Assembly: GCF_000429925.1 (NCBI RefSeq)
Contig: NZ_AUCU01000010.1
Coordinates: forward strand, 62,001-126,000
Reading direction: 5' to 3'
DNA length: 64,000 nt
Source: Desulfatirhabdium butyrativorans DSM 18734
GTDB taxonomy: Bacteria > Desulfobacterota > Desulfobacteria > Desulfobacterales > Desulfatirhabdiaceae
This document shows, in pieces, positions 8,170 to 54,196 of this stretch. Position 1 is the stretch's first letter, and each line of letters starts with the position of its first letter. Position numbers and translations under genes: made by a program. The notes below the pieces were generated by a model. That model made no database searches and was not told the DNA's origin. It saw nothing but the letters and a program-made list of their open reading frames with translations.

Positions 8170-8185
8170 AGATTTGCCCTTCCCA

Positions 8186-10567
8186 TCAAGCGATACAGAC
8201 ACGGCGGACCTCCCGGATATCGGTCAGGCCTTGAAGGACCTTGAGAATGCCGTCTTGTTTGAGTGTGCTCATGCCTTCGGACTTCGCCCTTTCGAGCAGT
8301 TCCTCCGTAGGCGCTTTGATCTTGATCAGACGCTTGATTTCCTTGGTTCCTTCCATCAATTCGTGAATTCCCATCCTTCCCTTATACCCGCTTCCCGAAC
8401 AGGCCTCGCACCCGTTCGGCCGGTAGAGCACCAGATCCGGAGAATAGACGATCCCGGTCTTCTGAAAATCCTCCCGGCCATATTCATCCACGATTTCCTG
8501 GAATTCGGCCGCATCGGGATGGTATGCCTGTTTACACTGGCGGCAGAGGGTACGAACCAGCCGTTGGGCAAGCACGCCGAGAAAGGCATCCGAAAAATTC
8601 AGCGGGTTCATTCCCATGTCGAGCAGCCGGGTGACGGTTTCGGGCGCACTGTTCGTGTGCAGCGTGGAAAATACCAGATGACCCGTCAGGGATGCTTCGA
8701 TCCCGATCGAGGCGGTTTCTTCGTCCCGCATTTCACCGATCATGATGACATCGGGATCGGCCCGCAGAAACGAGCGCATCACCCGCGCAAAATCGAGCCC
8801 GATCCGCGGCTTGACCTCAACCTGCCGAAGCCCTGCCTGGGTGATTTCCACCGGATCCTCGGCTGTCCATATCTTGGTTCCCGGCTTGTTGATATAGCCC
8901 AGCGCCGCATGCAGGGTCGTGGTTTTACCGGAACCCGTCGGGCCAACCACCAGAATCAGGCCATAGGGCTGAGCCACGATTTTTTTCAGAATGCCCAGAT
9001 TGCGCTCGTTCAAGCCCATCTTGTCGAGCGGCATGGCGCCTGCCTTGGCGAGAATGCGCAGTACGGCATCCTCCCAGCCGCCGGCCGTTGGGATGGTGGC
9101 CACCCGCAGCTCGAAGGGTGGAACACCTTTTCGCCTGAAGACGATCTTGCCATCCTGCGGCAGCCGTCTTTCGGATATATCGAGATTGGCCAATATCTTG
9201 ATACGGGAAAGCAGCCCTTTGGCCATGGTGTTCGGCACTTTCAGATACTCCTGGCAGACCCCGTCCATACGGAAACGAATCCCGGTCTTCTTGGTGACAT
9301 CGGAAGGCTCGATATGAATATCCGATACGCCGCTTCGATAGGCCGTCACCAGAATCTGGTCCACCAGCCGGACAACCTGGCTCGCATTTTCATCGAGTAT
9401 GGCGAGCTCTTCCTCCGGCTCTCTCTCTTCGTCGAAGGCAATATCCGGAATCAGCCGTTCCAGATCGATGCTTTCCTCTGCCGCAGAAACGGCGCTTTCA
9501 TCGAAAAGGAGGTGGATGAACCGTTCGATATCCTCCCGGATGCCGACACAGAGATGGATTTGCTGGATTTTGATCAGGGCCTTGATATGATCGGTCTTGC
9601 GAATGTCTTTCGGATCATCCACCAGAATTTCGATGGTATTGTTCGACCAGTTCACCGGCACCCACATATCGTGCAGCAGGAAGGATTTCTTGAGACTGCG
9701 CGATATTTCCTTGGGCAGGTTCGCCTGCGGATCGAAAGACCGGAAAGGGCAGCCATAATACCGGGAAAGGGACTCTCCGATTTCCGGTTTGGGGATCTGA
9801 AACTCTTCGATCAGGACGGTTTCGACGCTTTTCCGGGATTTCTGGGCAATCACCAGGGCCTTCTGCAATTGCGCCGGGCTGATCAGCCGTTTGTTGATCA
9901 GTACATCGTAACGTGAGCCCGGGGTTGCCTGCGCAAGATAGCTCCGGATCTTCTCATCGATGGCCGCATTGGCCGGATCGAGCTGCATGGCGGTTTTCAG
10001 AAGTTCCAGCGCCTGATCCCTGTGATCCCTGACTTCGAGCTCCTCAGCCAGCACCACCATCTGGGCCACCTTGGATGCATTGGTCTCCGAAGATTCCAGG
10101 ATGACCGGCAAGAGGCTTTCAGTCGCCTTTTTTGGGGTCATCCATTTCAGCAGGCAATCGAAATAGATGCGCAATATCCGGGGTGTTCCGGGTTCTTTTC
10201 GAAACGCCTTCTCATACTCTGCACTCGCCTGGGCAAACAGTCCCAGTTCGAATAATGCGGATGCACTCTCCAGAATGTCCTCCGTTCGGGTTTCCTGTTG
10301 CAGCTGCTGCTGCAAAATCGCCATTTCCCGGGATGAAACACTGCCGTTTACGGAAGGCTCAGCTTCCATTTCCTGAATCCGTCGTCTCGCATCGGCAGAC
10401 CTTTTGAGGATTTCTTCGACCCGCGCCGGTTCGATCGATTTGGCATGCAGGAGCAGTTCGTTGCATATCCTCAGGCTTTCCTCATACAACCCCATTTCGT
10501 GGTAGACAACGGCCTCATGCATCTTGGCCGGAACCACCGAAGGATCAAATTGCGGAGAAGTGTTCAC
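8186..10567 (-). CDS. pilB: PilB/GspE-family assembly ATPase with TPR-like N-terminus
   Basis: The protein has 793 residues, longer than a usual PilB (~560-580). Residues 1-200 look TPR-like (AVVYHEMGLYEESLRICNEL, then FELGLFAQASAEYEKAFRKE). Residues ~215-360 are a T2SSE_N/MshEN-type domain. The ATPase core has the Walker A GPTGSGKTTTLHA near 542, an Asp box (AEDPVEITQAGLRQVEV), the Walker B region LRADPDVIMIGEMRDEETA and a His box (HLVFSTLHTNSAPETV). A tetracysteine zinc site (CRQC, then CEACSG) follows near 685-735. It powers type IV pilus or type II secretion assembly. The start is GTG with a strong GGAGGAAG site. Confidence 0.88.
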   Translation of the reverse strand: MNTSPQFDPSVVPAKMHEAVVYHEMGLYEESLRICNELLLHAKSIEPARVEEILKRSADARRRIQEMEAEPSVNGSVSSREMAILQQQLQQETRTEDILESASALFELGLFAQASAEYEKAFRKEPGTPRILRIYFDCLLKWMTPKKATESLLPVILESSETNASKVAQMVVLAEELEVRDHRDQALELLKTAMQLDPANAAIDEKIRSYLAQATPGSRYDVLINKRLISPAQLQKALVIAQKSRKSVETVLIEEFQIPKPEIGESLSRYYGCPFRSFDPQANLPKEISRSLKKSFLLHDMWVPVNWSNNTIEILVDDPKDIRKTDHIKALIKIQQIHLCVGIREDIERFIHLLFDESAVSAAEESIDLERLIPDIAFDEEREPEEELAILDENASQVVRLVDQILVTAYRSGVSDIHIEPSDVTKKTGIRFRMDGVCQEYLKVPNTMAKGLLSRIKILANLDISERRLPQDGKIVFRRKGVPPFELRVATIPTAGGWEDAVLRILAKAGAMPLDKMGLNERNLGILKKIVAQPYGLILVVGPTGSGKTTTLHAALGYINKPGTKIWTAEDPVEITQAGLRQVEVKPRIGLDFARVMRSFLRADPDVIMIGEMRDEETASIGIEASLTGHLVFSTLHTNSAPETVTRLLDMGMNPLNFSDAFLGVLAQRLVRTLCRQCKQAYHPDAAEFQEIVDEYGREDFQKTGIVYSPDLVLYRPNGCEACSGSGYKGRMGIHELMEGTKEIKRLIKIKAPTEELLERAKSEGMSTLKQDGILKVLQGLTDIREVRRVCIA

Positions 10568-10573
10568 GTCTTC

Positions 10574-10921
10574 CTCCGGGTATCATGAAAGTCCTTCTCC
10601 CCGCGATATGGGAAAAAACCGTTGTCGCTATCGTTGCCGTAATCGTAATCGTTGTCGTTGTCGTTGTCGTAATCGTTGTCGTTGTCGTTGTCGTAATCGT
10701 CGTCGTTGTCGCTATCATTGTCGTTGTCGTTGTCGTAATCGTAATCGAATTCGCATTCGAAACTTCCCTGGCCCGTCACCCCGGCAACAACCCCACCCCG
10801 GCAACAACTGGAATCCAAAGCCCCAAAGCCAGTCGAAATCCCTCCATGACGCAACGCCTGAACGAAAACCCCTTTCTGGGTACAGCCCGAGCCTGTCGGT
10901 AGGCTGTTTGTTCATGCAGTC
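10574..10921. repeat. Hexamer array 1 with conserved flanks; gap before pilB
   Basis: From about 10620 to 10756 the plus strand is made of 6-bp units of TCG plus a variable triplet (TTG, TAA, CTA). The flanks CTTCTCCCCGCGATATGGG and AAACTTCCCTGGCCCGTCAC match the flanks of arrays near 32.2, 26.0 and 13.65 kb. The rest of the gap to 10921 includes a CCTGAACGAAAACCCC segment related to the repeat ends at 39 and 57.7 kb. ORFs crossing it read as monotonous V/I or D/N/Y runs and are not genes. The gap lies inside the minus-strand motility cluster. Confidence 0.85.
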
Positions 10922-11629
10922 TCACTGTCCTTCCGCACGCCACAATCGAATCTCCGCCCGGAGCGCTCGAAATTCCGCCTGAATCAAGTTCCGCAATTCC
11001 GTCATGGCTTCAACGAAGGCATCGTGAAGCGCCGCATCCCGGGGGACCGAATCCGTACGTCCGGCGGCTGCCTCCGGCGAAGCGTCTTCACCGCTTCCAT
11101 TCGCTGCCGGAGGCGCAGACAGCGGCTGCTGCTTCGGACGGTCTTCGGAAAGGGGCCGCTGAATACCCGCGGCTTGGTCCAGGCGCTCGCCTGAACCGGC
11201 CGAGCGGACCATATCCCGCAGCCGGTTGTATTCCGAAATCCGGCTCAAAAGACGCTCTTTCCGCTGGGCGGCCGGCGTCCGATCCGGATAGAAAGAAGCT
11301 TCCATATCCTGAAAAACGGCATGAAGCAGGCGGATGGCCTCCGGATGAATATCGGCTTTCCGCTTGAGGATATAATTGCCGATGCCTACGAGCAGCTCGA
11401 ACCATTTGCGATTGACGGGATCATCAGCGTGCGTTTTCTGCAACCGGCCAAGCTCCAATAAAAATCCCGAAACCGTATCCTCCGAAATTTCCCAGTCAAT
11501 CGATAGAACCAGGGCCTTGAGCACCTGCAGCGGATGATCGGAAAGCACACCTGCTTCTCTGGCCGAAAACGGCTCGACAAACATCTCCGAATCGTTCAGA
11601 AAGACTTCCATCTCGGATGCAGATGCCAT
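10922..11629 (-). CDS. Uncharacterised protein of the mglA-pilB cluster
   Basis: I do not recognise a family for this 235-residue protein. Residues 1-125 appear helical (FLLELGRLQKTHADDPVNRK, then IGNYILKRKADIHPEAIRLL). A disordered Ser/Ala/Gly/Pro-rich linker (~135-195) follows, then a C-terminal helix (FVEAMTELRNLIQAEFRALR) that looks like a coiled coil. It has no signal peptide or membrane segment. It starts 12 bases after the MglA-like GTPase, so it is probably cotranscribed with it. A scaffold or effector role is conjecture. Confidence 0.65.
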   Translation of the reverse strand: MASASEMEVFLNDSEMFVEPFSAREAGVLSDHPLQVLKALVLSIDWEISEDTVSGFLLELGRLQKTHADDPVNRKWFELLVGIGNYILKRKADIHPEAIRLLHAVFQDMEASFYPDRTPAAQRKERLLSRISEYNRLRDMVRSAGSGERLDQAAGIQRPLSEDRPKQQPLSAPPAANGSGEDASPEAAAGRTDSVPRDAALHDAFVEAMTELRNLIQAEFRALRAEIRLWRAEGQ

Positions 11630-13728: not shown

Positions 13729-15258
13729 CTATCCCACATCCGTTTTCACCCTGCCTTCACGAACCCGATTGAATCGGAATGGGGCCTGCCGAACCCGAAT
13801 GCCATGCTGGCGCAAGTGCCCTGCCGTAAACATTTCCGCACTGACCGGCGGTGCCTGGAACCCCGTCTGGCACCAAGATGTCACATAAGCTTCGAATTCG
13901 TCAAGTTTATTCATATAACATGCCATGTCCTGAGGGGAACCAACGGCAAAACGGTCGTTGACCCCGTCAAAACCATGGAAATCGGGAACATGCAGGTAGC
14001 GAAGGTCGATTCGATCCAAACCCTCGATCGGCGATGCAAAGAGAATATCCGGTCTGCAACGGATGAGAACATCGTAAACGCATCCGGTTTCCGCCTGGTA
14101 CTCTGCCAATAACCGGTAACATTGCTTCAACCCGTTCAATTGCTGCAGATAGCGCTGCACGCCGGTTTTAAGGCTGCAATGGATGCCGTTCCGGAGAACG
14201 CCTTCATCAAGAACATGATCCGGTTCCGCTTTCCACCGGACGGGATGCAGGAGCGAGACATGCCGCGCATGACCGTCATCCGGAGCAAAAACGAAAACAT
14301 CGCAGGAGGGAAGCTTTGAAATCAGCATCTGAACCAAATTTTCCGCTGTAACCCTCAGGTGACGCACACTGCCGGAAACGAGCAGCGCAAAGCGCCGATG
14401 CGGTCCGCACCTCGGCCAATCGTCCGGAGGCCGGGCTTTTTCGAACCCGCTGCATGATCGAAACCGAAAGAACGGGTGGGCTCGATCGACCTGAGACCAC
14501 AATCGGCTATCGGGTAAATAGGAAGACTTCTTTCTGCAGGGATTGCCGCAAACCGGCTCGATTTGATTGGGGCTGCTCACGGGAAGCCGGCTGCCGAGCT
14601 CCGGAGCAAGGGCCATGCGGAGAAAATTTGTTGGAATGTTCCAGTAACGCTTTTTCTGAACATAGCTTCGACGCGTCGTGTTCCGGGTCAGGATGAGATT
14701 GCACTGGAGGCGATGCTCCGGGTAGAACAGGGTGCACAGATGGGCCACCAGCAATTGGGAATAGAGCCAGGATTCGGCATCGAAGCCCGTATAATAGGGC
14801 AACAGCAACGGCAGGGTTTCCCGATGGAAGGCATTCATCAGGGCGTCGAAATTGTGGCCGAGGTTGACGATACGATCCGCTTCCGTATGCTGCCAGGAAT
14901 AGCGGGTATATCCGACCGCAGGCTCCCAGTCCAGCAGCCATGCTTCGAAGGTGCGAAAGGGGTTTCCCGTCAGCGGCACGCCAAGACTTTTGGCCAGATC
15001 GGTGTCTTCCTTGATCCGGATGTCTTCATCCAGGAAAATATAGTAGCGGTAGTCGGCGGCTCCACATTGAACCCGCCTGCATGCCTCGGCCAGCAGAGCA
15101 TTTCTGCCTTCGTTCCAGGAACTTCCCGGAAGAAACAGCGCCCCGGGCCAGTCGGCAGGTGTTTTCCACGTCAGCAGGATGATGTCATTCTTTTCATCCG
15201 GAAGCTCGCAATAGGGCATGTGGTGCGATGCCTGAATCAGATAGACGAAAGGTTTCAT
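13729..15258 (-). CDS. Two-part glycosyltransferase-like protein
   Basis: The protein has 509 residues and no membrane segments. The N-terminal half contains YRYYIFLDEDIRIKEDTDL, whose DxD resembles the metal site of GT-A glycosyltransferases. The C-terminal ~230 residues have CDVFVFAPDDGH, YDVLIRCRPDILFASP and DGVNDRFAVGSPQDMACY, a pattern seen in proteins that report on or modify cell-surface glycans. The middle (~235-285) is low in conserved features. The two halves may be independent domains fused into one protein. The substrate is unknown, and it has no obvious operon partner. Confidence 0.55.
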   Translation of the reverse strand: MKPFVYLIQASHHMPYCELPDEKNDIILLTWKTPADWPGALFLPGSSWNEGRNALLAEACRRVQCGAADYRYYIFLDEDIRIKEDTDLAKSLGVPLTGNPFRTFEAWLLDWEPAVGYTRYSWQHTEADRIVNLGHNFDALMNAFHRETLPLLLPYYTGFDAESWLYSQLLVAHLCTLFYPEHRLQCNLILTRNTTRRSYVQKKRYWNIPTNFLRMALAPELGSRLPVSSPNQIEPVCGNPCRKKSSYLPDSRLWSQVDRAHPFFRFRSCSGFEKARPPDDWPRCGPHRRFALLVSGSVRHLRVTAENLVQMLISKLPSCDVFVFAPDDGHARHVSLLHPVRWKAEPDHVLDEGVLRNGIHCSLKTGVQRYLQQLNGLKQCYRLLAEYQAETGCVYDVLIRCRPDILFASPIEGLDRIDLRYLHVPDFHGFDGVNDRFAVGSPQDMACYMNKLDEFEAYVTSWCQTGFQAPPVSAEMFTAGHLRQHGIRVRQAPFRFNRVREGRVKTDVG

Positions 15259-15292: not shown

Positions 15293-16816
15293 TCATTTCG
15301 TTTTCACGGGTTGTTTCGAAATCCATTCCGCCATCTCGGCAAGCCGTTTCGATAATGGCGCATAGCCTTCGGCAAATACGGCATAATCCCCGCCGCCGGC
15401 CATGGCCGCCGTAAACCGGATGTTGTTGGCGTCGTAAAGCCACAAGCCACTCCAGAGCTTTTCGATGGGCTCATCGAAAAGGCTCTCCGGGGCGCCTTTG
15501 GCCAGTTTCCGTTTCCAGATTTCGACCATCATGTCGGTCGCCGTTTTCGTCAGGCTGTGTGTTCGTTGGATGGTGCCCTCAAACCGCTGCCAATGGCCGC
15601 TCACCCAGGATGTGCCGTGACATGCCCTGCAGATTGTCTGCATGGTTTCGGTGCGTTTTCGCTGTTCCTTCTGGTCGATCAAATACGTCTTGGCGATTCC
15701 GCCCCCCAGATCCGTCGGCAGCGGTTGACCGTCGGCATTCCGGATAACCGTCACATCGGGTAGAATCGGTTGTGGATGCGGGTAAGGAAGCCCGAAAATC
15801 CGCCAGGCCAGACGATTGTTCATCCGGTGGGTTCGCTCGGCCACAACGTTGCCGTCTTCCGAAACCAGAAGACTGATATGGCACCCGGCGCATGTCGGCG
15901 CCGTAAAATCCTTGCCGATGACCCACGGGCTCGATCCCATATTCCATTTCCCCTGCATGGCAGCGGCGATATTTCCGTGTTTGCTCGCATCGTACACCTT
16001 ATAGGCGGGGACATCGGGACCGTTATGGCATTCCTTGCACGTCGCCGGTTTTCTGGCCACCGCCTGGGGGAATGCATGGCGGGGATGGCAGGCCGTGCAT
16101 GCTCCCAAACTTCCGTCGGGATTGACCCGGCCCACACCGTTGTTGGGCCATCCGGAGATGACCGGAAAGGCCATTTCCCCCATATCCGTATCCCGGCTGA
16201 CAGATCCGGTCACCTCCATCTTCGTTCCATGGCAGTAGTAACAGGCAACAGCCTCTGTCCCCAAGGCAGATGCTGCACTTTCGGCAGGTTTCAACTGGGC
16301 GGGAGAGAGCATGGAACGCTGCAAATCCCGGTACACGGCATTATCCGCCAGGTTGCGATAGGCATGTGACATGATGTTGTCGTTGTATTGATCCCTCTCC
16401 GTCGTATGGCACACGGCGCAGTCGCGGGGAGTCACGACCGGGTGAATATCGAAGCCATTGTGGCTGACCGTATCCCGATGGGCATCCGCATTCAATGTGT
16501 GGCACTCGGCGCAACCGACGGTCGTTTCCATCAGCGCATCCGGAACAATCTGGGTGATGATTTTCCGGTTGCGATCCTTGACATCGATCGCCTGTTTGGG
16601 GGTGACGAGAGCATGCCGGCTGTTCTTCCAGTCCGAAACGATGCCGGGATGAAGACTCTCGTGGCAATCGAGACATTGTCGCGTCGCCTCACTGACAGGA
16701 ATTTCACCGGCCGATACGGGGTATTCCGGGGATAAAATCACCATGAAAATCATCAGAACAATCAATCGGAGTTTCCTGCGGAAGTTCCTGCTGGCGAGAC
16801 AATCACCGTGATTCAT
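15293..16816 (-). CDS. Octaheme c-type cytochrome, hydroxylamine oxidoreductase-like
   Basis: The protein has 507 residues with an N-terminal export signal (hydrophobic run ~17-30). Eight CxxCH heme sites begin at residues ~48, 102, 133, 192, 240, 260, 309 and 396. Their spacing, and the HIS-rich stretches between them (SKHGNIAAAM, THRMNNRLAWRIFGLPYPHP), resemble the HAO-like octaheme family, which oxidises hydroxylamine or reduces nitrogen compounds in the periplasm. The catalytic Tyr cross-link cannot be confirmed by eye. The start follows a strong GGAGGAGAA site. No membrane quinol partner is adjacent. Confidence 0.85.
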   Translation of the reverse strand: MNHGDCLASRNFRRKLRLIVLMIFMVILSPEYPVSAGEIPVSEATRQCLDCHESLHPGIVSDWKNSRHALVTPKQAIDVKDRNRKIITQIVPDALMETTVGCAECHTLNADAHRDTVSHNGFDIHPVVTPRDCAVCHTTERDQYNDNIMSHAYRNLADNAVYRDLQRSMLSPAQLKPAESAASALGTEAVACYYCHGTKMEVTGSVSRDTDMGEMAFPVISGWPNNGVGRVNPDGSLGACTACHPRHAFPQAVARKPATCKECHNGPDVPAYKVYDASKHGNIAAAMQGKWNMGSSPWVIGKDFTAPTCAGCHISLLVSEDGNVVAERTHRMNNRLAWRIFGLPYPHPQPILPDVTVIRNADGQPLPTDLGGGIAKTYLIDQKEQRKRTETMQTICRACHGTSWVSGHWQRFEGTIQRTHSLTKTATDMMVEIWKRKLAKGAPESLFDEPIEKLWSGLWLYDANNIRFTAAMAGGGDYAVFAEGYAPLSKRLAEMAEWISKQPVKTK

Positions 16817-18984: not shown

Positions 18985-21717
18985 TCATCCCTTCTTTTCC
19001 ATCAGTGCAGCATGCGCCGCTGCAAGCCGTGCGATGGGAACCCGGAAAGGCGAACAGGAGACATAGGTCAAGCCGATTTCATGGCAGAGCGCGATGGATT
19101 TAGGATCACCCCCATGCTCCCCGCAAATCCCGCACTCGAGACCGGGTTTGACGGCCCGGGCTTTTTGAACGGCCATGGCCATGAGCTGCCCCACCCCGTC
19201 CTTGTCGATGGTCGCAAACGGGTTGTTCGGCAGGATTCCCTGTTTCATGTATTCGAGCAAGAATCCCGATTCGGCGTCATCCCGGGAAATACCGTAGGTC
19301 GTCTGGGTCAGGTCGTTGGTGCCGAAAGAGAAGAACTCGGCCTGCTCGGCAATCTGATCGGCCGTCAGCGCGGCTCGCGGAATTTCGATCATCGTACCGA
19401 ATTTGTATTCGATCTTCACGTCCTGCTCCGCCATGACTTTTCTGGCTTCTTCTTCCAGAACACCCCGCTGGACCCGCAGTTCGTTCACATGGCTGGTCAG
19501 GGGAATCATGATTTCGGGTTTCACGACAATGCCATCCCGCGTCACCTGGCATGCAGCCTCGAAGATAGCCCGTACCTGCATCCGGGTCAAATCCGGATTG
19601 TGAATCCCGAGGCGCACCCCGCGAAGTCCCAGCATCGGATTGGCTTCCCGAAGCGATTCGGCGCGCTTGAGAATGCGTTCCTTCTCCCGTATCTGCTGGA
19701 TCACCTGATCGATCTCGGCGAGGGTTCCCGTCTGGCGGATGCGAAGCTTGAGGTCCGTCAGCTCCCGCATCAGCTCGATGTGGTTCGGCAAAAATTCATG
19801 CAGCGGCGGATCGATCAGACGGATGATGACGGGAAGCCCGTCCATTTCCCGGAAAAGACCGATAAAATCTTCCCGTTGAAAGGGCAGCAGGCCATCGAGC
19901 GCCTCCCGCTGTTCGATCGGCAACTGGGCAAGGATCATTTTCTGCACCAGAGGCAGCCGATCCGCCTCGAAAAACATGTGCTCCGTCCGGCACAGGCCGA
20001 TGCCCTCCGCGCCATACGCCCTCGCCCGCTTGGCATCCCTTGGATAATCCGCATTGCACCATACGCCAAGCTTTCTGAAACCGTCGGCCCACGCCAGAAG
20101 CTTGATCAGCCACGGATCCTGAATATCCGGAACGGTCGTATCGAGTTTTCCGATGAAGACCTCTCCCGTATTGCCGTCGATGGAAATCCAATCCCCTTCA
20201 ATGATTTTCATGTCCCCGACGAGAATCCACCGCCTGCCCAGATCGATGTTGAGGGCTGCCACGCCGACAACCGCCGGCTTGCCGAATTGGCGCGCCACCA
20301 GTGCGGCATGGCTGGTCCTTCCGCCTCGGCTGGTGACGATCCCTTTTGCTGCAAGCATGCCGTGAACATCGTCCGGCCGGGTTTCGGGTCGCACCATGAT
20401 GACGGGTTTGCCTTCCTTCTGCGCCCATTGCTCGGCGATGTCGGCATCGAGCGCCACCACACCACAGGCTGCGCCAGGCGATACATTGAGCCCCTTGGCG
20501 ATGAGCTTGCCGGAAGCCCGCGCTTCCTGAAGCACCTTGACGGGAAACTGCGGATGGAGAAAGAAATCGATCTGATCGGGACTCACCTGCAGCACGGCCT
20601 CTTCCCTGCTGATCAGGCCCTCTTCGGCCATATCGACGGCGATCCGAACGGCAGCCTGGGCAGTGCGTTTGCCGTCCCGGGTCTGCAGCATCCAGAGCTT
20701 GCCCCGCTCGATGGTGAATTCCACATCCTGCATGTTGCGGTAATGCTTTTCCAGTTTCTCGGCAATCTCCTGAAACTGGCGAAACGCTTCGGGCATTTCC
20801 TTCTGCAGTTCCCAGATATCCTTGGTCTGCCGAATACCCGCCACCACGTCCTCGCCCTGGGCATTGGTCAGATAATCGCCTTCGATGCGGCGCTCCCCCG
20901 TCGATCCGTTCCGGGTCATGGCCACGCCGGTTGCGCTGTCGTTTCCCAGGTTGCCGAACACCATCGTGACGATGCTGACAGCCGTACCCAGATCATGGGG
21001 AATCCCTGCGGCATTGCGGTAATCGATCGCCCGCTTGCCGTTCCAACTCTTGAAAACGGCCTTGATGGCCAGACTCAATTGCTCATAGGGATCCAGCGGG
21101 AAATCGCGTTTGGCATGCCTTCGGAAAATGGCCTTGAATTCCTTGGTGATCGCCTTCCAGTGTTCTGCCGAAAGCTCGGCATCCGTTGCGACGCCGACCC
21201 TGTTTCGATAAGCGGAAAGCACATCCTCGAAGGCTTCATCCGGAGCACCCATGACAACGGTGCCGAACATCTGGATCAGCCGGCGATAGGCATCGTAGAC
21301 GAAACGCTCATCCTGCGTCAGCTCGACCATGCCGAGAGCGGTTTCGTCGTTCAGTCCGATGTTGAGTACCGTATCCATCATGCCCGGCATGGAGGATTTG
21401 GCCCCGGAACGGCACGAGACGAGCAGCGGATGATCCGGCTTCCCGAAATGCTTTCCTGTCCGGATTTCGAGCCCTGCCATGGCCTCCTTGACCTGGTCCC
21501 ACATGCCTTCCGGAAAAACGCCGCCTGTGGCCAGAAAGTCATTGCATGCCTCGGTGGTAATCGTAAAACCGGGAGGAACCGTCACGCCGATACGCACCAT
21601 GTCGGCCAGGTTGGCGCCCTTTCCACCCAGCAGGCCCTTGACCCTGTCCCAGTCTCCGCCCAACTCGCTGTGCAGCCGATCAATTTCGTCGAAAAAATAC
21701 ATCCACCGTTTGCTCAT
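18985..21717 (-). CDS. ppdK: Pyruvate, phosphate dikinase
   Basis: This 910-residue protein has the family's length and domain order. The N-terminal ATP-grasp domain has GGKGANLADMVRIGVTVPPG at ~32-51 and NLGNDSATGVAMTRNGSTGE. The phosphohistidine domain has GGRTSHAALVARQFGKPAVV near 465-485 with the catalytic His. The C-terminal PEP/pyruvate barrel has GTNDLTQTTYG and the Cys motif CGICGEHGG. It interconverts pyruvate, ATP and phosphate with PEP, AMP and pyrophosphate, for gluconeogenesis or PPi-linked glycolysis. A strong GGAGGAGGTGAG ribosome site supports the start. A heptamer array lies just upstream. Confidence 0.96.
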   Translation of the reverse strand: MSKRWMYFFDEIDRLHSELGGDWDRVKGLLGGKGANLADMVRIGVTVPPGFTITTEACNDFLATGGVFPEGMWDQVKEAMAGLEIRTGKHFGKPDHPLLVSCRSGAKSSMPGMMDTVLNIGLNDETALGMVELTQDERFVYDAYRRLIQMFGTVVMGAPDEAFEDVLSAYRNRVGVATDAELSAEHWKAITKEFKAIFRRHAKRDFPLDPYEQLSLAIKAVFKSWNGKRAIDYRNAAGIPHDLGTAVSIVTMVFGNLGNDSATGVAMTRNGSTGERRIEGDYLTNAQGEDVVAGIRQTKDIWELQKEMPEAFRQFQEIAEKLEKHYRNMQDVEFTIERGKLWMLQTRDGKRTAQAAVRIAVDMAEEGLISREEAVLQVSPDQIDFFLHPQFPVKVLQEARASGKLIAKGLNVSPGAACGVVALDADIAEQWAQKEGKPVIMVRPETRPDDVHGMLAAKGIVTSRGGRTSHAALVARQFGKPAVVGVAALNIDLGRRWILVGDMKIIEGDWISIDGNTGEVFIGKLDTTVPDIQDPWLIKLLAWADGFRKLGVWCNADYPRDAKRARAYGAEGIGLCRTEHMFFEADRLPLVQKMILAQLPIEQREALDGLLPFQREDFIGLFREMDGLPVIIRLIDPPLHEFLPNHIELMRELTDLKLRIRQTGTLAEIDQVIQQIREKERILKRAESLREANPMLGLRGVRLGIHNPDLTRMQVRAIFEAACQVTRDGIVVKPEIMIPLTSHVNELRVQRGVLEEEARKVMAEQDVKIEYKFGTMIEIPRAALTADQIAEQAEFFSFGTNDLTQTTYGISRDDAESGFLLEYMKQGILPNNPFATIDKDGVGQLMAMAVQKARAVKPGLECGICGEHGGDPKSIALCHEIGLTYVSCSPFRVPIARLAAAHAALMEKKG

Positions 21718-43793: not shown

Positions 43794-46106
43794 TCAGGAT
43801 TCGACAGGCGCCATTTCCAGATATTCCCGATAGTGCATCAGGATTTCCGAGGTTTCCCGGACAGTTGCCTTGCACAGCAGGGTGCTGGCGTAGGACTGCG
43901 CCTTTCTGAGCTCGAGCTGCCGGATGATTTGCTGGGTGTGCGGCAGATATTGCGGATTCACGCTCAGCCGGCGCACGCCGATGCCGATCAGAAAGGCGAT
44001 GTATTCAGGCTCATGGGCCAGCTCGCCACAGACCGAAACGGGTTTGCCCTGCCGGATGGCCGCCTGGACGATCGCATGCAGCCCCCTCAGCACAGCCGGA
44101 TGCCCCGGCTGATAGTACTGCGCCACCTTTTCGTTGGTCCGGTCCACCGCAAGCATGTACTGGACAAAATCGTTCGTACCGATGGAGAGAAAATCCGATT
44201 CGGCCGCCAGTTCATCCAGAATCGGGATCACCGAGGGCAACTCCACCATCATCCCGATGCGTATCCGGCCCTGATGGGAAAGACCATTTTTCGACAGGTC
44301 CGCAATACAGCGCAGAACGACGGTTTTGGCTTCGCGCAGCTCATCGAGCGAGCAGATCATGGGAAACATGATGCCCACATCCGGATGATCGGCCCCTGCC
44401 CGCAGCACCGCCCGGATCTGCTGCTCGAAAATTTCCGTATTCTGGAGGGAAAATCGGATGGATCGAAGCCCCAGCTCCGGATTGGCCTCGCCTGTCGAAT
44501 CCGAATAGGCCAGTACTTTGTCTCCCCCGATATCGAGGGTTCGGATCACCACCGGCTTGCCGGGCATCTGTTCGATCAGCCGTTTGTAAATCTGGTACTG
44601 CTCTTCTTCCGAAGGGAAATTCGATCGGATGATGAAGGGAAATTCGGAGCGGTAGAGCCCGATACCCTCTGCAAGCAACTGGTTTGCCAGCGGCAGTTCA
44701 CTGAGCAGGTTGATGTTGGCATACAAATGCACCCGCTCTCCGTCCGCCGTGCACGTAGCAGGCTCCATCTGCCGCGAAAGCCGGGATGCCTGAACCCGCG
44801 CGCTGTTGCGTTCTTCGAACTGCTTCAGAATGCGCTGCGATGGATCGACATAGAGATTGCCGATATCGGCATCCATCAGCACGGGGGTATTGTCGGGGAT
44901 GGTCAGCAGATCGGGTTTGTCGACAATCAAGGTGGGGATCTGCAGCGACTGGGCCAGAATGGAAACGTGGCTGGTGATGCCGCCGCTGACCAGCACGATC
45001 CCCGCGACATCCTGGGAAGCCAGCTTCAGAATATCGGAAGGATAGAGTTCCTTGGCAATGACGATGCGGTGCTGCAATCCCCCGTGGGAATCCGTGTTCC
45101 GATCCATGAGGTTCTCGATCAGCCGGGCACCCAGATCCTGCATGTCGATGACTTTTTCCCGCAGATACAGATAGGGGCTGGCGGAAAACATGGCGATATA
45201 GTGCCGGGTAACGGCTTTGACGGCGCGGCAGGCGTCCATGCCTGCCTGGATTTTGGCCATGATTTCGGTGTGGAAACGGCTGTCCTTGAGAATCATGAAA
45301 TGCGCGGTGAATATGAGCGATGCGCTCTCGGGAAGGCGCTGCGCAAATCGATCCTGCAAGGTCTTCAACTGTTCGAGCGTCTTGTGGAAGGCCTCCTGAA
45401 ATTCGGCCATGCCCAGATGGCTGCCTGCTTCCGTCAGGTCATCGTCGAACAGCAGCGCGCCCGCCTTTTCGAATTTCACGCACGGCGCCAGGGCGAATCC
45501 GGAAGATGCGCTCCGCCCCCTCACGAACCGCAGGCTTTCGGGTACACAGGCGCCGCGTTGCGGCGTTTCGGCCATATCCATCAGAAGCCGCGCATTTTCG
45601 ATGGCCCCTGCCAGTTGGGACGCCGTTGCCTTGAGCGCCATCATGTCGGTTTCATCGAAATAGTCCCGCTGGCTGTGCTGCACGACCAGTACCCCGATAT
45701 TTTCGATCCCGCGGATGATCGGCACGGCCAGAAAACTCTCGAAACGTTCTTCTCCGGTCTCCTCGAAATATTTGAAATGGCGGCTGCTGCTGGCAAACCC
45801 CTCGCAAACAGGCTGGCGTGAGAGCATCGCCATACCCACCAGCCCTTCTCCGGATTTGAGCCGCACTTTCCCTTCCGATGCGGGATTCAGGCCGATCGTG
45901 GCCCGAAGGACCAGTTCATGCCGCTGATCGTCGAAAAGATAGATCGAGCAGACATCCGCATGGAGGTGTCTGGCCACCATCCGAGCCGTCTGGCGGAGGA
46001 AATGGGCGATATTCTTCGAATCCGCCAGAATGGTGGTCAGCTCGCTCATATCGCAGAGCAGATTGAAATGATCGGTATTGCGTCTCTGGTTGTTTTCCGG
46101 TTCCAT
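43794..46106 (-). CDS. ptsP: Phosphoenolpyruvate-protein phosphotransferase PtsP
   Basis: The protein has 770 residues. Residues ~15-165 form a GAF domain (HLHADVCSIYLFDDQRHELV). The enzyme I part follows: ARPHASSGF-like RSASSGFALAP, GGITSHVSILAQSLQIPTLI with the active His near 382, GIGLYRSEFPFIIRSNFPSE, DIGGDKVLAY, ELGLRSIRFSLQN, IGMMVELPSVI, SIGTNDFVQYMLAVDR and SVCGELAHEP with the Cys. It is the EI-Ntr branch of the phosphotransferase system, which signals nitrogen or energy state through HPr/NPr proteins not found in this window. Confidence 0.93.
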   Translation of the reverse strand: MEPENNQRRNTDHFNLLCDMSELTTILADSKNIAHFLRQTARMVARHLHADVCSIYLFDDQRHELVLRATIGLNPASEGKVRLKSGEGLVGMAMLSRQPVCEGFASSSRHFKYFEETGEERFESFLAVPIIRGIENIGVLVVQHSQRDYFDETDMMALKATASQLAGAIENARLLMDMAETPQRGACVPESLRFVRGRSASSGFALAPCVKFEKAGALLFDDDLTEAGSHLGMAEFQEAFHKTLEQLKTLQDRFAQRLPESASLIFTAHFMILKDSRFHTEIMAKIQAGMDACRAVKAVTRHYIAMFSASPYLYLREKVIDMQDLGARLIENLMDRNTDSHGGLQHRIVIAKELYPSDILKLASQDVAGIVLVSGGITSHVSILAQSLQIPTLIVDKPDLLTIPDNTPVLMDADIGNLYVDPSQRILKQFEERNSARVQASRLSRQMEPATCTADGERVHLYANINLLSELPLANQLLAEGIGLYRSEFPFIIRSNFPSEEEQYQIYKRLIEQMPGKPVVIRTLDIGGDKVLAYSDSTGEANPELGLRSIRFSLQNTEIFEQQIRAVLRAGADHPDVGIMFPMICSLDELREAKTVVLRCIADLSKNGLSHQGRIRIGMMVELPSVIPILDELAAESDFLSIGTNDFVQYMLAVDRTNEKVAQYYQPGHPAVLRGLHAIVQAAIRQGKPVSVCGELAHEPEYIAFLIGIGVRRLSVNPQYLPHTQQIIRQLELRKAQSYASTLLCKATVRETSEILMHYREYLEMAPVES

Positions 46107-48868: not shown

Positions 48869-49234
48869 TCACCCGCCCAGCAGGCGTTCGATGCAGGCTT
48901 TCAGATCCTTGATCTTGAAGGGTTTCGGGAAAAAATCGTCCACTTTTCCCCGAACGGCTTCCACGGCGGCATCCATACTCGCAAATGCCGTAATCATGAT
49001 CACCTTGGTATCCGGCGATTCCTTCTTGACGGTGCGCAGGACTTCCATGCCGTCGATCCCCTTCATTTTCAGATCGGTGATGATCACATCGAAGGGCTCT
49101 TCCTTCATCCGCGCCAGTGCGGGCGGCGCGCTGAGAAAGGTTTCCACATGGTAGCCGTCTTTTTCGAAGGTGGCCTTGATCATCTTGCCAACGATATTCT
49201 CGTCATCGATCACGATGATTTTAGCGCCTTTCAT
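48869..49234 (-). CDS. Single-domain response regulator
   Basis: This 121-residue protein is a lone receiver domain. IIVIDDENIVGKMIKATFEK has the acidic pair, FDVIITDLKMKGIDGMEVL the phospho-Asp near 52, VIMITAF the Thr/Ser and FFPKPFKIKDL the Lys. It has no output domain. Its ATG overlaps the stop of the histidine kinase (ATGA), so the two are coupled and probably cognate. It may instead relay to the DUF202 proteins encoded upstream. Confidence 0.92.
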   Translation of the reverse strand: MKGAKIIVIDDENIVGKMIKATFEKDGYHVETFLSAPPALARMKEEPFDVIITDLKMKGIDGMEVLRTVKKESPDTKVIMITAFASMDAAVEAVRGKVDDFFPKPFKIKDLKACIERLLGG

Positions 49235-50715
49235 CCCCCCGTCTCCTCTCTTCGACAAACCGGGAGCGTGATCGTAAAGCAGGTGCCGGAGCCCATTTCG
49301 CTCTGCACCTGGATCGTTCCCTGGTGGTTTTGAATGATGCCATAGCTGACGAAAAGCCCAAGTCCGGTCCCGCCCGCCTCCTTCGTGGTAAAGAACGGGT
49401 CGAAGACATGGGGCAGAAATTCCGGCGGAATTCCCCTGCCGGTATCCTGGATGGCGATCTGGATATGCTCTCCCGGATCGTCGAGCCCGGATCGAATGCA
49501 CAGCTTGTCTCCGGCGGAAGAAGCCTGAATGGCATTGGTGATCAGGTTGATCAATACCTCCTGAATCTGGTTGATGTCAATCAATACATGAGGCAGGTTT
49601 TCCGTCAGATGAACGTCGATGTCGATGTTGGAAATCTGCAGCATGTTCCCGACCAGAGAGAGGCTCTTCTGGATGACGGCGTTGATGGAGGCTTCGACGC
49701 GGTTGGGTTTCTTGGGCTTGGAAAAATCGAGGAGGTTTTTGACGATATCCCGGATCCGCTCGGTTTCCTCCTCCACTTTCCGCATGTACTCGATGCGCTC
49801 TTCCCGGCTCAGATCGTCGTAAAGTTCGGCGTATGCCTGGGCCATCATGGAGATGTTGTTGAGCGGATTGCCGAGCTCGTGAGCGACGCCTGCCGTCAGG
49901 ATACCGATGGATGCGAGTTTCTTGGACTGAATGATCATCTCTTCATGCTGTTTGAGCTCTTCGGACATGGAATTGATGGCTTTCATGACCGAGTCGAGCT
50001 CATCGGGTTTGTTCTTTGCAAAAAACGTTTTCAGGAAAGGCAGTTTCGAAAGGAGCGCACCCATCCAGGCCGGTTCATGAAACGGGCGCACCGGCTGAAC
50101 CTTCCGGAAGGTCCCCTCGGATATGGCATGGGCGACTCGCTCGATTTCCTTGAGGGATTTGAGAATTCGCTGGGTGACCAATTGACTGACCCCGAGTGCG
50201 GAAATCAGGATGAGTACCAGGGAAATGAACAGCCCGTTCCGGGAGCCCGCAATGATCCGGTTGACATTGGCCCGCTCCAGCTTGGTGATGTGATCGGCGA
50301 ATTCCCGCAACCGCTGGCCGGCCTCCCGGATGCGCGCCTGCAGACGCTCCGAATTCACCCCCTGCTCCCCGGCGGCGTTGATCACCCCCAGATAATCCTG
50401 GGTGCAGAATTCGAGTTGCCGGTAATTGGGCTCCCCGATCGCCCGGGTGATATCTTCCCGCTCGGATTGCATCACATCCTGGCTTTCCCTGAGCTTGTTG
50501 TGAATGTTCACCAGTTCGGTGGCATCGTGATACAGGAAAAAGTTTTTTTCGGAAATCCGGATTTCAAGGAAAGAGGCGTTCAGATCGTCGGCAATCTCGA
50601 CATACCGCAGCTTGGTCAGCAGAAGCTGCAGGTTCTGGTAAGCGAACAACCCGGTCAATGCGATCAGCAGAATGTCGAAGAGATTGGCCAGAATGATCTT
50701 GTGGACGATTTTCAT
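49231..50715 (-). CDS. Membrane sensor histidine kinase
   Basis: The protein has 494 residues. A first membrane segment (~6-26) and a second (~165-190) bracket a helical extracytoplasmic domain with KLRYVEIADDLNASFLEIRI. HAMP-like residues ~190-260 follow. The dimerisation helix has GVAHELGNPLNNISMMAQAY with the phospho-His near 279. The ATPase part has LINLITNAIQASSAGD (N), IQDTGRGIPPEFLPHVFDPF (G1/F), and TGLGLFVSYGIIQNHQGTI (G2). It is in one operon with two MshEN/DUF202 proteins upstream and a receiver downstream. GGGAGGG supports the start. Confidence 0.93.
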   Translation of the reverse strand: MKIVHKIILANLFDILLIALTGLFAYQNLQLLLTKLRYVEIADDLNASFLEIRISEKNFFLYHDATELVNIHNKLRESQDVMQSEREDITRAIGEPNYRQLEFCTQDYLGVINAAGEQGVNSERLQARIREAGQRLREFADHITKLERANVNRIIAGSRNGLFISLVLILISALGVSQLVTQRILKSLKEIERVAHAISEGTFRKVQPVRPFHEPAWMGALLSKLPFLKTFFAKNKPDELDSVMKAINSMSEELKQHEEMIIQSKKLASIGILTAGVAHELGNPLNNISMMAQAYAELYDDLSREERIEYMRKVEEETERIRDIVKNLLDFSKPKKPNRVEASINAVIQKSLSLVGNMLQISNIDIDVHLTENLPHVLIDINQIQEVLINLITNAIQASSAGDKLCIRSGLDDPGEHIQIAIQDTGRGIPPEFLPHVFDPFFTTKEAGGTGLGLFVSYGIIQNHQGTIQVQSEMGSGTCFTITLPVCRREETGG

Positions 50716-50732
50716 GCGCAACCCTCCCGGAT

Positions 50733-51974
50733 TCAACACGTCTGAACGAGCGAAGGCGCCTCGCGCTGCTCTTTCCGGACGGGCCAGTACCAGATCAGGC
50801 CATCCACGATCATGAATGCCCCGGCCAGGATCGTGAACCCATCCAGAACGCTCATCCAACTGACACCGAAATAACCGATGAGCCCGACGCCGATACTCGC
50901 GAAGGAAACCCCCGTACGGATGAAGGACAGACCGGTTCTGGCCCGGGCATAGATGGTCCGGTAACAGGCCAGCACCGTTCGCTGGGCTGCCAGCGCCGTT
51001 CGTTCATGCGCCAGAAAGGAGCGGATCTTGTTGTCCGGTGAATTTTCGATAAACACACAGGCGTTGGGCAACATGTCCGTCAGCCGCGCCAGCATGGTCT
51101 GGCGGCCCTTCGCCAGGGAGGTTTTTTCCTTTTCACCGAATTGATAGTTTTCCAGAAAGTGCATCGTGATCGCGCTGACCTCGATCAGTGTCTGGGGAGC
51201 CGGCGGGCTGAGCAGCGACTTCTTGATCCGGAAATAGCTGGCAATGCCGATCAGCAGAAAAGCGATGCCCAGACCGATCAGGGTCCAGAGGGAAGCCTTC
51301 AGGAGCATGTCGTTTGCCCGGATTTCGAGCAGCGTCCGACCGGTCGTGATCATCCCCAAGCCCCATCGAAGCGAGCCGAAATGGGTTCTGGTGATGGCGA
51401 AATCGGTCCGGTAGCAGGCCATCCGGGTGCGCCACCTCGACATGATGTTTCGCCAGAAGGCAAGCCCCGTTCGCTCGTTGCCGATCAGATGTCTGGGCGG
51501 GCCGTTGACGAAATCCTGGATGAAGGACTCGATATCCTCCACGAGGGCAACCCGGAATTCGTATCTTGGGGCGGGCACCATGCGCCGAACCTGGGAAAGG
51601 ACGAGCGGATCCTGCGGATCGTTTGCTGCAATGACCACACAATCGCCGCAGCGCATCACCGGAAACCAGCGGCTCGCGCACAAAACCTCGGCATCGAGCC
51701 CTTCCAGCAGGTCGGGCGGAACCGGAATTCGCTCGTCGTAGATCGCCCAGCCGCAACCGTAATGGCAGGCCAGCGCCTCCAGGAGGCGCTGGCGGGGAAT
51801 TTGGAGCTCATGGCGGAGGATGAATTCCGCAGGAATGGATCGCAGGTCGGCAGCCTCGATGACAGTGTGCAGCATCTGTTCATCCAGGATGTTCGCATCG
51901 ATCAACTCGCGAAATCGTTCGATTTCCTGCCTGGCGGAAGACGCCGCCAATCGGAAAGGGTTAGATGTCTTCAT
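50733..51974 (-). CDS. MshEN-like domain fused to two DUF202-like modules
   Basis: The protein has 413 residues. Residues ~30-155 resemble the N-terminal domain of PilB/MshE ATPases (LLEALACHYGCGWAIYDERI, then CVVIAANDPQDPLVLSQVRR and YEFRVALVEDIESFIQDF). That domain binds c-di-GMP in MshE; binding here is inferred. No ATPase follows. Instead, residues 167-250 (degenerate) and 322-400 are DUF202/YidH-type modules with recurring Arg-Thr pairs (RTALAAQRTVLACYRT, RTGLSFIRTGVSF) and two membrane segments each. The start overlaps the end of the upstream paralogue by 14 bases. No motif suggests an enzyme; a membrane signalling or scaffold role is inferred. Confidence 0.72.
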   Translation of the reverse strand: MKTSNPFRLAASSARQEIERFRELIDANILDEQMLHTVIEAADLRSIPAEFILRHELQIPRQRLLEALACHYGCGWAIYDERIPVPPDLLEGLDAEVLCASRWFPVMRCGDCVVIAANDPQDPLVLSQVRRMVPAPRYEFRVALVEDIESFIQDFVNGPPRHLIGNERTGLAFWRNIMSRWRTRMACYRTDFAITRTHFGSLRWGLGMITTGRTLLEIRANDMLLKASLWTLIGLGIAFLLIGIASYFRIKKSLLSPPAPQTLIEVSAITMHFLENYQFGEKEKTSLAKGRQTMLARLTDMLPNACVFIENSPDNKIRSFLAHERTALAAQRTVLACYRTIYARARTGLSFIRTGVSFASIGVGLIGYFGVSWMSVLDGFTILAGAFMIVDGLIWYWPVRKEQREAPSLVQTC

Positions 51975-53562
51975 GGCTGAATACCACGGTCGGCCAATCC
52001 GAGGACAGGGTGCCGTAATCGGGGATGGCAATTTCAATGTCCGCATAACAGTATGGAAATTGCTTGCGGACTTTTTCCGCAGGAAAAAACCACCAGGTGC
52101 CGTCCACCAGCAGGATGACGCCTGCTGCAACGAGCAGCAGATTGAAGCAGGACCAGATGACATTGCCAAAACCGAAAAAAACCTGCAGCCCCATGCCGAC
52201 CGAAAGGATGCTGGTCCCGGTACGGATAAACGCCAGCCCCGTGCGGGACTGGGCCATCATCGTGCGCACCCTCGCCTTGATCGTCCGCCGGTCTGCAATG
52301 AGCGTCCGCTCGAGGGCCAGGCCCGTTGTTCCCCATATTCCGGGTGCGTGATCATCGGCCAGCCGAAGCGGAAACGGCCTGTCATTCGGCGGCGTCTGTC
52401 CGCCGAAGCGGTAATTGGGCGGGAACATGAAATCCCAGATGGATTGTCTCCGGTTTGCCTTGGATATTCCGATAGAAGTGTATTTGATGATCTGCCGTCC
52501 TGGAAGATAGTACTGAAATCCTTCCGCCGTCATGAGCACACCGCAGAAAATGAGCAGGCCATCCAAAATCGTCCACCAGCCGGTGTGGTACTGCCGCAGC
52601 AGCCCAATCCCGAGCCCGCTGAAGGCAATACCCGTACGGGTGAAGGCCAGCCCCGTCCGGGTCTGGGCCATGATGGTGCGATATCCCGCAAGAGCCGTGC
52701 GTTCTTCTGCGAGGTCCGTCCGATCGATGGCGAGAAACCGTCTTCTTTGAACCGGGCTGAGCCTGTTCCAGCGGTTGCGCAGTTCGCCAGCTCCGGCAAT
52801 GGGATCGCTCCTGCGATAGGAAACCCCCGAAGCGTCCTGAGTTTGTTCCAGCACGGTCGTTCCGAAGGTCGGCTCGGGTTCGAGCACTTCCACGGTTTTG
52901 CGTCCAAGATGACGAATGGGCAGGTACCAGAGAAATCCATCATAGATCATGACCAGCCCGCTTACCAAAAGCAGGACTTCCGCGAGGCTCAGATAGCCGA
53001 ATCCGAAGATTCTCAGCAGCACCAGAGCGATGGAGACGAAGGAAATGCCCGTACGGATGAATGCGAGACCCGTTCTTCCCTTGGCCAGAAGCGTCCGGTA
53101 CCGGCTGAGGGTTTCCCGTTGACCCGCAAACCATGTCCGCAGTCTTGCCAGAACGGTCCTCCCGGCGGAAACGGGAAACCCGGGGTTGAGATCCTGATGG
53201 TGCGCAATGGTGGCCAGAATATCGAAGGGAAGGGCAACGAGCAGATGCAGGGTTTCCACATTGAGAATGTCGCGAATGGTCTGGAGCAGTTCCAGATCTC
53301 CGGGTTTCCAGATCATGACGGTTGCGGCCCCGTTCCGGCAGGAAAGCGGAAACCACAGGTCACGCTTCAGTTGATCGAGGGGCAGTTTTCGCAGCAGGGT
53401 TTCGGGAATGACACGTTTTTCATCGTATTCCACAAACGGAAGCCCATAATGTTGGCTCAGGCATTGCAGGGCTTCATGCTTCGGAATGCGGCGCTCCCGG
53501 AGAAACGATTCTTCGAAACGGGCGGCCTGCGTCAAAATGCAAATGAGTTTCGTGGGCTGCAT
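51961..53562 (-). CDS. MshEN-like domain fused to three DUF202-like modules
   Basis: The protein has 533 residues. A short PilB/MshE-type N-terminal domain (~10-120; ALQCLSQHYGLPFVEYDEKR, FPLSCRNGAATVMIWKPGDL) lacks the usual second copy. Three DUF202-like modules follow at 134-218, 280-355 and 418-495, each with Arg-Thr repeats (RTGLAFIRTGISF, RTALAGYRTIMAQTRTGLAF, RTMMAQSRTGLAFIRTGTS) and two hydrophobic segments ending in a short WYLP/YYLP/WFFP motif. It is a paralogue of the next gene. The operon continues to the histidine kinase and receiver. No ribosome site is strong, so the start is uncertain. Confidence 0.72.
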   Translation of the reverse strand: MQPTKLICILTQAARFEESFLRERRIPKHEALQCLSQHYGLPFVEYDEKRVIPETLLRKLPLDQLKRDLWFPLSCRNGAATVMIWKPGDLELLQTIRDILNVETLHLLVALPFDILATIAHHQDLNPGFPVSAGRTVLARLRTWFAGQRETLSRYRTLLAKGRTGLAFIRTGISFVSIALVLLRIFGFGYLSLAEVLLLVSGLVMIYDGFLWYLPIRHLGRKTVEVLEPEPTFGTTVLEQTQDASGVSYRRSDPIAGAGELRNRWNRLSPVQRRRFLAIDRTDLAEERTALAGYRTIMAQTRTGLAFTRTGIAFSGLGIGLLRQYHTGWWTILDGLLIFCGVLMTAEGFQYYLPGRQIIKYTSIGISKANRRQSIWDFMFPPNYRFGGQTPPNDRPFPLRLADDHAPGIWGTTGLALERTLIADRRTIKARVRTMMAQSRTGLAFIRTGTSILSVGMGLQVFFGFGNVIWSCFNLLLVAAGVILLVDGTWWFFPAEKVRKQFPYCYADIEIAIPDYGTLSSDWPTVVFSHEDI

Positions 53563-53686: not shown

Positions 53687-54196
53687 TCATTGCTGAAGGG
53701 AGGACATCCGAAATGCCTTCAACCCTTCGAGGGAAATTTCCCCCTGGGACTGAAACGCCAGCTTGTCCGGCCGAAAGAATCCGCCGTCCATGAACAGCTT
53801 GCCATTCATTTGGTAGGCGACCTTGTCCTTCAAACGAATTTCCCGGATGATGCGCGCCATGTCTTCCACGGAAGAATAAACGGTGATCGGAATGACTGCT
53901 GTGTCATGGGGGGGAATATGGATGGGCATATTGGAGACCCCGGTAGCAAGTCTCGAATTTTCGAGATCAAGCTGGCAGTCGAGCCCCTTGAAGTCGAATG
54001 CATCGCTGTTGCCATTGAAAACCCGCATTTCGATTCTGAGAACGGCTTCGAACAGGTTGATATCCTCGACCTTGATTTTCGACACCGTCACACGAGGAGA
54101 TTCCACCGAACCGGTTTTGAAACCGCATCCGGCGGTTGATACCCATATCAGGATCATGCAGGAAATCGCAAGCCGGGAGGCAATATCCTTCCGCAT
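53687..54196 (-). CDS. LEA14-like lipoprotein
   Basis: The protein has 169 residues. A signal peptide ends in WVSTAGCGFKTG, a weak lipobox with Cys at ~24 (position -3 is Thr, which is unusual). SVESPRVTVSKIKVEDINLF, LRIEMRVFNGNSDAFDFKGL and VIPITVYSSVEDMARII match the LEA type 2 / WHy fold family, often found as outer-membrane-associated lipoproteins. Its function is unknown. It lies between the DUF202 cluster and the RNB gene on the same strand, separated from both by more than 120 bases. Confidence 0.72.
   Translation of the reverse strand: MRKDIASRLAISCMILIWVSTAGCGFKTGSVESPRVTVSKIKVEDINLFEAVLRIEMRVFNGNSDAFDFKGLDCQLDLENSRLATGVSNMPIHIPPHDTAVIPITVYSSVEDMARIIREIRLKDKVAYQMNGKLFMDGGFFRPDKLAFQSQGEISLEGLKAFRMSSLQQ

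Follow-up and report, generated by a model that had tools for sequence, protein, structure and literature searches.

Organization of the A-B-HK-RR locus

The DNA analysed is a window of 64,000 nucleotides from Desulfatirhabdium butyrativorans DSM 18734 (contig NZ_AUCU01000010.1), in which four genes of the minus strand, here named A, B, HK and RR, encode two multi-module membrane proteins and a two-component pair. Gene A (51961-53562) encodes a protein of 533 amino acids (aa) with an MshEN-type N-terminal domain and three DUF202 modules, and gene B (50733-51974, 413 aa) encodes the same type of N-terminal domain and two modules, as assigned by Pfam and by AlphaFold models. The A and B genes overlap by 14 bases. 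HK (49231-50715, 494 aa) is a membrane-bound sensor histidine kinase with an N-terminal sensor region, and the HAMP, HisKA (H-box AGVAHELGNP) and HATPase_c domains were identified in it by Pfam. RR (48869-49234, 121 aa), whose start is joined to the end of HK through a shared ATGA, consists of Response_reg as its sole domain, and this receiver is complete (residues IDDE, ITD, T and KP intact). The kinase and the receiver resemble NtrC-type histidine kinases and lone receivers in their domains, but RR has no domain for output and is linked here to membrane proteins. The gene boundaries, the overlap, the ATGA coupling and the nature of the kinase and receiver were as given in an initial annotation made from the sequence alone.

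In a scan of the whole genome, DUF202 was confined to A and B, whereas MshEN was found at eight places. No T2SSE ATPase domain of the PilB/GspE type was detected by Pfam in A, B, HK or RR, in line with the earlier statement that A and B carry no ATPase. Searches with NCBIfam gave no family for A and, for B, just the MshEN part of NfrB, far under the cut-off. An anti-phage or phage origin of A and B was also considered and rejected, since neither protein had a match in PADLOC or in PHROGs.

DUF202 modules and heptad arginines

The DUF202 family was matched by A in three stretches (E-value 2.5e-13, 50.7 bits) and by B (2.8e-7, 31.3 bits), both above the cut-off of 23.4 bits. In A, module 1 (52903-53160) is predicted to consist of a helix with the arginine heptads and the first membrane segment (residues 135-186, arginines from 135 to 170) and a second helix at 192-220; module 2 (52450-52755) has helices at 270-324 and 330-371 and its arginine array at 267-309, and module 3 (52060-52338) has helices at 409-463 and 468-501 with the array at 419-447. 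In B, the helices of module 1 (51213-51485) lie at 164-218 and 223-254 (array 161-203) and those of module 2 (50760-51029) at 316-369 and 375-405 (array 318-353). All five modules lie on the minus strand. The count of three and two modules and the Arg-Thr repeats agree with the initial annotation, the consensus of the repeat being the heptad R-T-x-(L/M)-A-x-x.

An array was defined as a run of at least five arginines at intervals of exactly seven residues. In the orthologue set described below, every complete A contained three arrays and every complete B two, with one array of the L116 B protein having four arginines by the strict count. The orthologues together held 195 arrays, against a mean of 0.28 and a maximum of 2 after residue shuffling, and chance is ruled out as their origin. 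Five successive heptad positions were arginine in 52 of 52 aligned modules, and 48 of these 52 matched PF02656 when taken separately (E-value 0.01). In a tree of the modules, five clades were resolved, namely A1, A2 and A3 (39/39 each) and B1 and B2 (37/37 each), with support of 0.96 or more for four of them and of only 0.41 for A1. The separation of the five clades indicates that the 3+2 layout is older than its spread across phyla; as read from this tree, the set of five modules is ancient and fixed.

Typical DUF202 members have one module. Although every module type of A and B matches the family, these proteins differ from other bacterial DUF202 proteins in carrying five modules in two chains and long arginine-heptad arrays. 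Single-DUF202 proteins with long Arg-Thr heptad coils ahead of the membrane module were also observed (L079:1107-2030, L076:6040-6846, L069:5601-6476 and L075:5136-5849), the coil of the L079 protein reaching over 20 heptads.

Conservation of the gene set

Relatives were searched first in 94 genomes and then in 291 genomes of the class, and full-length orthologues in the order A-B-HK-RR were found in several families of the class. When 84,980 species genomes were scanned, 40 loci were found beyond this strain; they belong to Desulfobacterota (or Desulfobacterota-type) genomes, Nitrospirota (Nitrospirae) and Actinomycetota (metagenome-assembled genomes of Actinomycetes and Thermoleophilia). All four genes were kept in at least 30 of the 40 loci, and those with an incomplete set were mostly cut contigs or members of one actinobacterial group that has no HK. 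Where more than 2.5 kb of sequence followed B (31 loci), both HK and RR were present in 24 by a script count. L100 would raise this number but for a frameshift, and the remaining six loci form the actinobacterial group without HK, three of them keeping RR. An apparent fusion of B to the kinase in L100 was discarded, as the C-terminal stretch of B lies in another reading frame in this locus, which denotes a frameshift or an assembly error. In L085 and L066, HK and RR are divergent and lie upstream of A/B, showing that the association survives rearrangement.

Many of these loci come from metagenome bins, so that single placements may be wrong, which is unlikely for a repeated pattern; in several loci the permissive-start reading of open reading frames lengthens B and HK upstream, and the starts given there are approximate. 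The absence of PF05157 or PF02656 matches and a gene order restricted to this strain had been named in advance as grounds for abandoning the initial annotation, and neither was encountered. The four genes are a real, widely conserved signalling-membrane module, and apparently one so far undescribed: no paper combining DUF202 with MshEN was found in a literature search whose scope excluded subscription papers.

MshEN domains and cyclic di-GMP

One question was whether the N-terminal domains place the system under the control of cyclic di-GMP (c-di-GMP), as the initial annotation had suggested. The MshEN-like domain of A (residues 39-124; 53191-53448, minus strand) matched PF05157 with an E-value of 1e-13 (55.4 bits in the genome scan) and that of B (about residues 80-155; 51507-51737, minus strand) with 1.1e-9, both above the Pfam cut-off. 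AlphaFold2 models, built from alignments of 37-38 sequences, showed an N-terminal alpha/beta domain and three long-helix hairpins in A (predicted local distance difference test score 82, predicted template modelling score 0.74), each formed by a helix of 52-55 residues and then a shorter one, and two such hairpins in B (84.7 and 0.67). With Foldseek, the N-termini of both models matched the N-domains of MshE, PilF, XpsE and PilB with a probability of 1.00, including the structure of MshE with bound c-di-GMP (5htl), whereas the membrane parts of the whole models returned low-quality helical matches. The fold and the Pfam match are therefore those of the MshEN receptor domains of MshE, PilF and NfrB, as had been proposed, and both would favour a membrane protein whose DUF202 part is gated by c-di-GMP bound to MshEN.

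The receptor motif for c-di-GMP consists of two 24-residue copies separated by a 5-residue spacer (PMC5013675). The proteins were scanned for two occurrences of the pattern RLGxx(L/V/I)2xxG(L/V/I)2x4Lx3LxxQ, and also with the relaxed pattern of PMC5013675. The motif was present in none of 41 A and none of 39 B proteins, even with the relaxed pattern. As positive control, an MshEN protein encoded elsewhere in the same genome (L002, contig C12) was used; both copies were intact in it, KLGEILIEAGLIQEKDLARALEIQ and RIGQVLIEMGAVDDEKIAKALASQ, with the expected 5-residue spacer. Aligned to this control, the motif glycine G11 is an aromatic or other residue in A and B, and G40 is mostly Glu. XpsE is reported to have lost c-di-GMP binding through similar motif changes (PMC5013675). 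In addition, MshEN is missing altogether from the A proteins of L113 and L115, which retain all three DUF202 modules.

Binding of c-di-GMP by the N-terminal domains of A and B is thus unlikely from their sequences, and control of A/B by this second messenger, the one claim of the initial annotation that failed, was rejected on the motif scan with its own-genome control and is very unlikely. A and B further depart from the known receptors in having no attached ATPase or glycosyltransferase. As judged from the orthologues, the conserved core is the set of 3+2 modules with the phosphorelay rather than the MshEN domain, and L002 is likely to be the true MshEN-type c-di-GMP receptor of this genome. 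An MshEN match by itself is insufficient ground to infer c-di-GMP control.

Recurrent neighbours of A/B

The flanks of the 40 loci were clustered to find recurrent neighbours. A dikinase of 845-929 aa was found near A/B in 13 loci, against a chance expectation of about 0.35 loci (a rough estimate, assuming about two copies per 4 Mb), and in six of them (L088, L090, L091, L098, L113 and L115) it lies directly after RR, starting -3 to +44 bases from the RR end. Like the superfamily of phosphoenolpyruvate (PEP) synthase and pyruvate-phosphate dikinase, this protein has PPDK_N and PEP-utilizers domains and a phospho-histidine (SHM/GHM), but the PEP-binding barrel is replaced by a C-terminal domain of about 265 aa (L088:14268-15059, L113:13870-14655) that has no Pfam family and contains many invariant residues (e.g. 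HDIxRxxHE, FRFxGG and RQLD). Dikinases with this domain were present in 191 of the 291 genomes of the class. At the genome level they occurred in 9 of 9 A-positive genomes, which is weak evidence because 182 of the 282 others have one too; local adjacency is the stronger signal.

In a second arrangement, the dikinase lies beside a protein that combines a single DUF202 module with a receiver (L068:4761-5843, L073:5786-6910, L077:5795-6877 and L078:5396-6535), and in two of the four loci (L073 and L077) an HK gene was also identified by sequence. The two layouts tie DUF202, receiver and dikinase together, and the fusion looks like a second architecture of the same pathway.

Further recurrent neighbours were universal stress proteins (Usp), TauE and Alph_Pro_TM proteins, all of which lie near A/B in the Nitrospirae loci. 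In D. butyrativorans itself, one of the three dikinase genes adjoins a Usp gene, and on contig C11 (L125) a TauE-like exporter (10191-11471) and a dikinase (6690-9284) lie on the same strand with an unassigned 228-aa protein between them.

These neighbours bear on whether A/B could assist type IV pili or type II secretion, in which case the degenerate MshEN would dock to proteins of the PilM/GspL or PilZ kind while the membrane modules served as an inner-membrane platform. The MshEN domain is characteristic of PilB/GspE, and a PilB (8186-10567) in which MshEN and T2SSE are both present is encoded in the window, as the initial annotation had noted for the MshEN domain. Pilin, PilC and secretin genes, however, are absent among the identified recurrent neighbours (Usp, TauE, Alph_Pro_TM and the dikinase), and A/B lack the T2SSE domain, so that a role of this kind is quite improbable.

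Comparison with the VTC complex and proposed mechanism

DUF202 is widespread, and to our knowledge no function has been assigned to it in bacteria; none was given in the literature searched either. The only well-understood members that we know of are the channel subunits of the yeast VTC complex, among them Vtc1, which we take to belong to the same Pfam family as the A/B modules. When a profile of the modules was compared with all sequences of the PDB, Vtc1 accounted for four of the eight matches, the best two included (9umg, 8i6v and 7ytj; E-values 0.29-0.64). In the alignment, the third and fourth heptad arginines correspond to Lys24 and Arg31 of Vtc1, respectively. A search of the PDB with A by phmmer gave no match.

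VTC is a 3:1:1 pentamer whose channel is formed by five first transmembrane helices (TM1) and lined by the pairs K24/R31, K622/R629 and K698/R705, each pair seven residues apart, with Arg31 of Vtc1 at the narrowest point (PMC9911596). In the A/B modules, as on TM1 of VTC, basic residues of the first membrane helix recur at intervals of seven, and those of Vtc1 align with the heptad arginines. Both systems (Vtc1/Vtc3/Vtc4 in yeast) also have DUF202-type membrane units, five in VTC and five modules per A plus B. In A/B, however, the units are fused 3+2 in two chains, the arrays are extended to 5-8 arginines, and there are two-component partners. Since VTC also has a third helix per unit and polymerase and SPX domains, A/B is not a member of VTC, but it may work in a similar mode.

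The reading that we prefer, with a probability of about 0.38, is a VTC-like membrane anion conduit with a five-module A/B assembly under two-component control. A and B would be made together from their overlapping genes, supplying three and two DUF202 modules; five modules per A plus B would fit a pseudo-pentamer, the most probable design, resembling the five DUF202-type membrane units of yeast VTC. The five long arginine-heptad helices would then line a positively charged conduit leading from the cytoplasm into the membrane, possibly for polyphosphate or another phosphate-rich anion. HK would sense a signal and phosphorylate the lone RR, which in turn might act on A/B by contact; in the sister architecture, receiver and DUF202 are joined in one protein. 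The MshEN domains would be docking or folding domains rather than c-di-GMP sensors, and the PEP-synthase-like dikinase, presumably in the same pathway, may supply or consume phosphoryl groups.

This mechanism hinges on the pseudo-pentamer, which we infer from the VTC comparison, and several observations weigh against it. The sequence likeness to Vtc1 is weak, the E-values of 0.29-0.64 being individually not significant, and hhalign with a single Vtc1 sequence gave a probability of 12%. VTC was not among the matches listed by Foldseek for the A and B models. Each A/B module has two predicted helices, in contrast to the three membrane helices of a VTC subunit, and neither a polyphosphate polymerase (TTM) nor an SPX domain was found by Pfam in A, B, HK or RR. 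Moreover, A and B are assumed to assemble 1:1, and in the window the dikinase is not beside A/B, the three copies of the genome being on other contigs.

Alternatively, A/B may form no pore and serve instead as a scaffold or co-sensor in the membrane. The arginine-striped helices would then be coiled coils for signalling, relaying a membrane or lipid signal to HK, and RR would diffuse to targets elsewhere, for example the dikinase or sigma-54 regulators. Three observations favour this. RR is the best-conserved member of the set, with about 90% identity where A has 63-65%; the actinobacterial sets are flanked by HK and NtrC-type regulators; and the single-module relatives with coils of more than 20 arginine heptads (L079) resemble stalks, not pores. 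Neither the fixed number of five modules nor the invariance of the arginines, in contrast to the more variable other heptad positions, is explained by such a scaffold, which we regard as somewhat less likely than the conduit.

The anion conduit can also be put in a bolder form, a bacterial VTC-like polyanion translocator with a covalent 3+2 pseudo-pentamer, an arginine-heptad charged conduit gated by HK/RR and a new histidine-phosphotransfer dikinase replacing the eukaryotic polymerase; in this full version it is unlikely. Of the facts added to the initial annotation, the constant 3+2 module number, the heptad arginines that line up with VTC pore residues and the link to the dikinase are the most informative. 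A bacterial operon that joins a fixed set of five DUF202 modules, arginines at pore positions and a phosphorelay opens the function of DUF202 to direct tests, and points to a way in which bacteria might transport phosphate polymers across a membrane or sense them.

Other genes of the window

A gene for a LEA_2-type (LEA14-like), lipoprotein-like protein (53687-54196) lies 124 bases upstream of A on the same strand; it was not prominent among the recurrent neighbours of the loci. A GAF-containing PtsP-type PEP phosphotransferase (43794-46106) and a pyruvate phosphate dikinase (18985-21717), both on the minus strand, are also encoded in the window, with no indication that either belongs to the A/B system. 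Finally, a multihaem cytochrome gene (15293-16816, minus strand) adjoins the gene of a DUF7796 protein (13729-15258).

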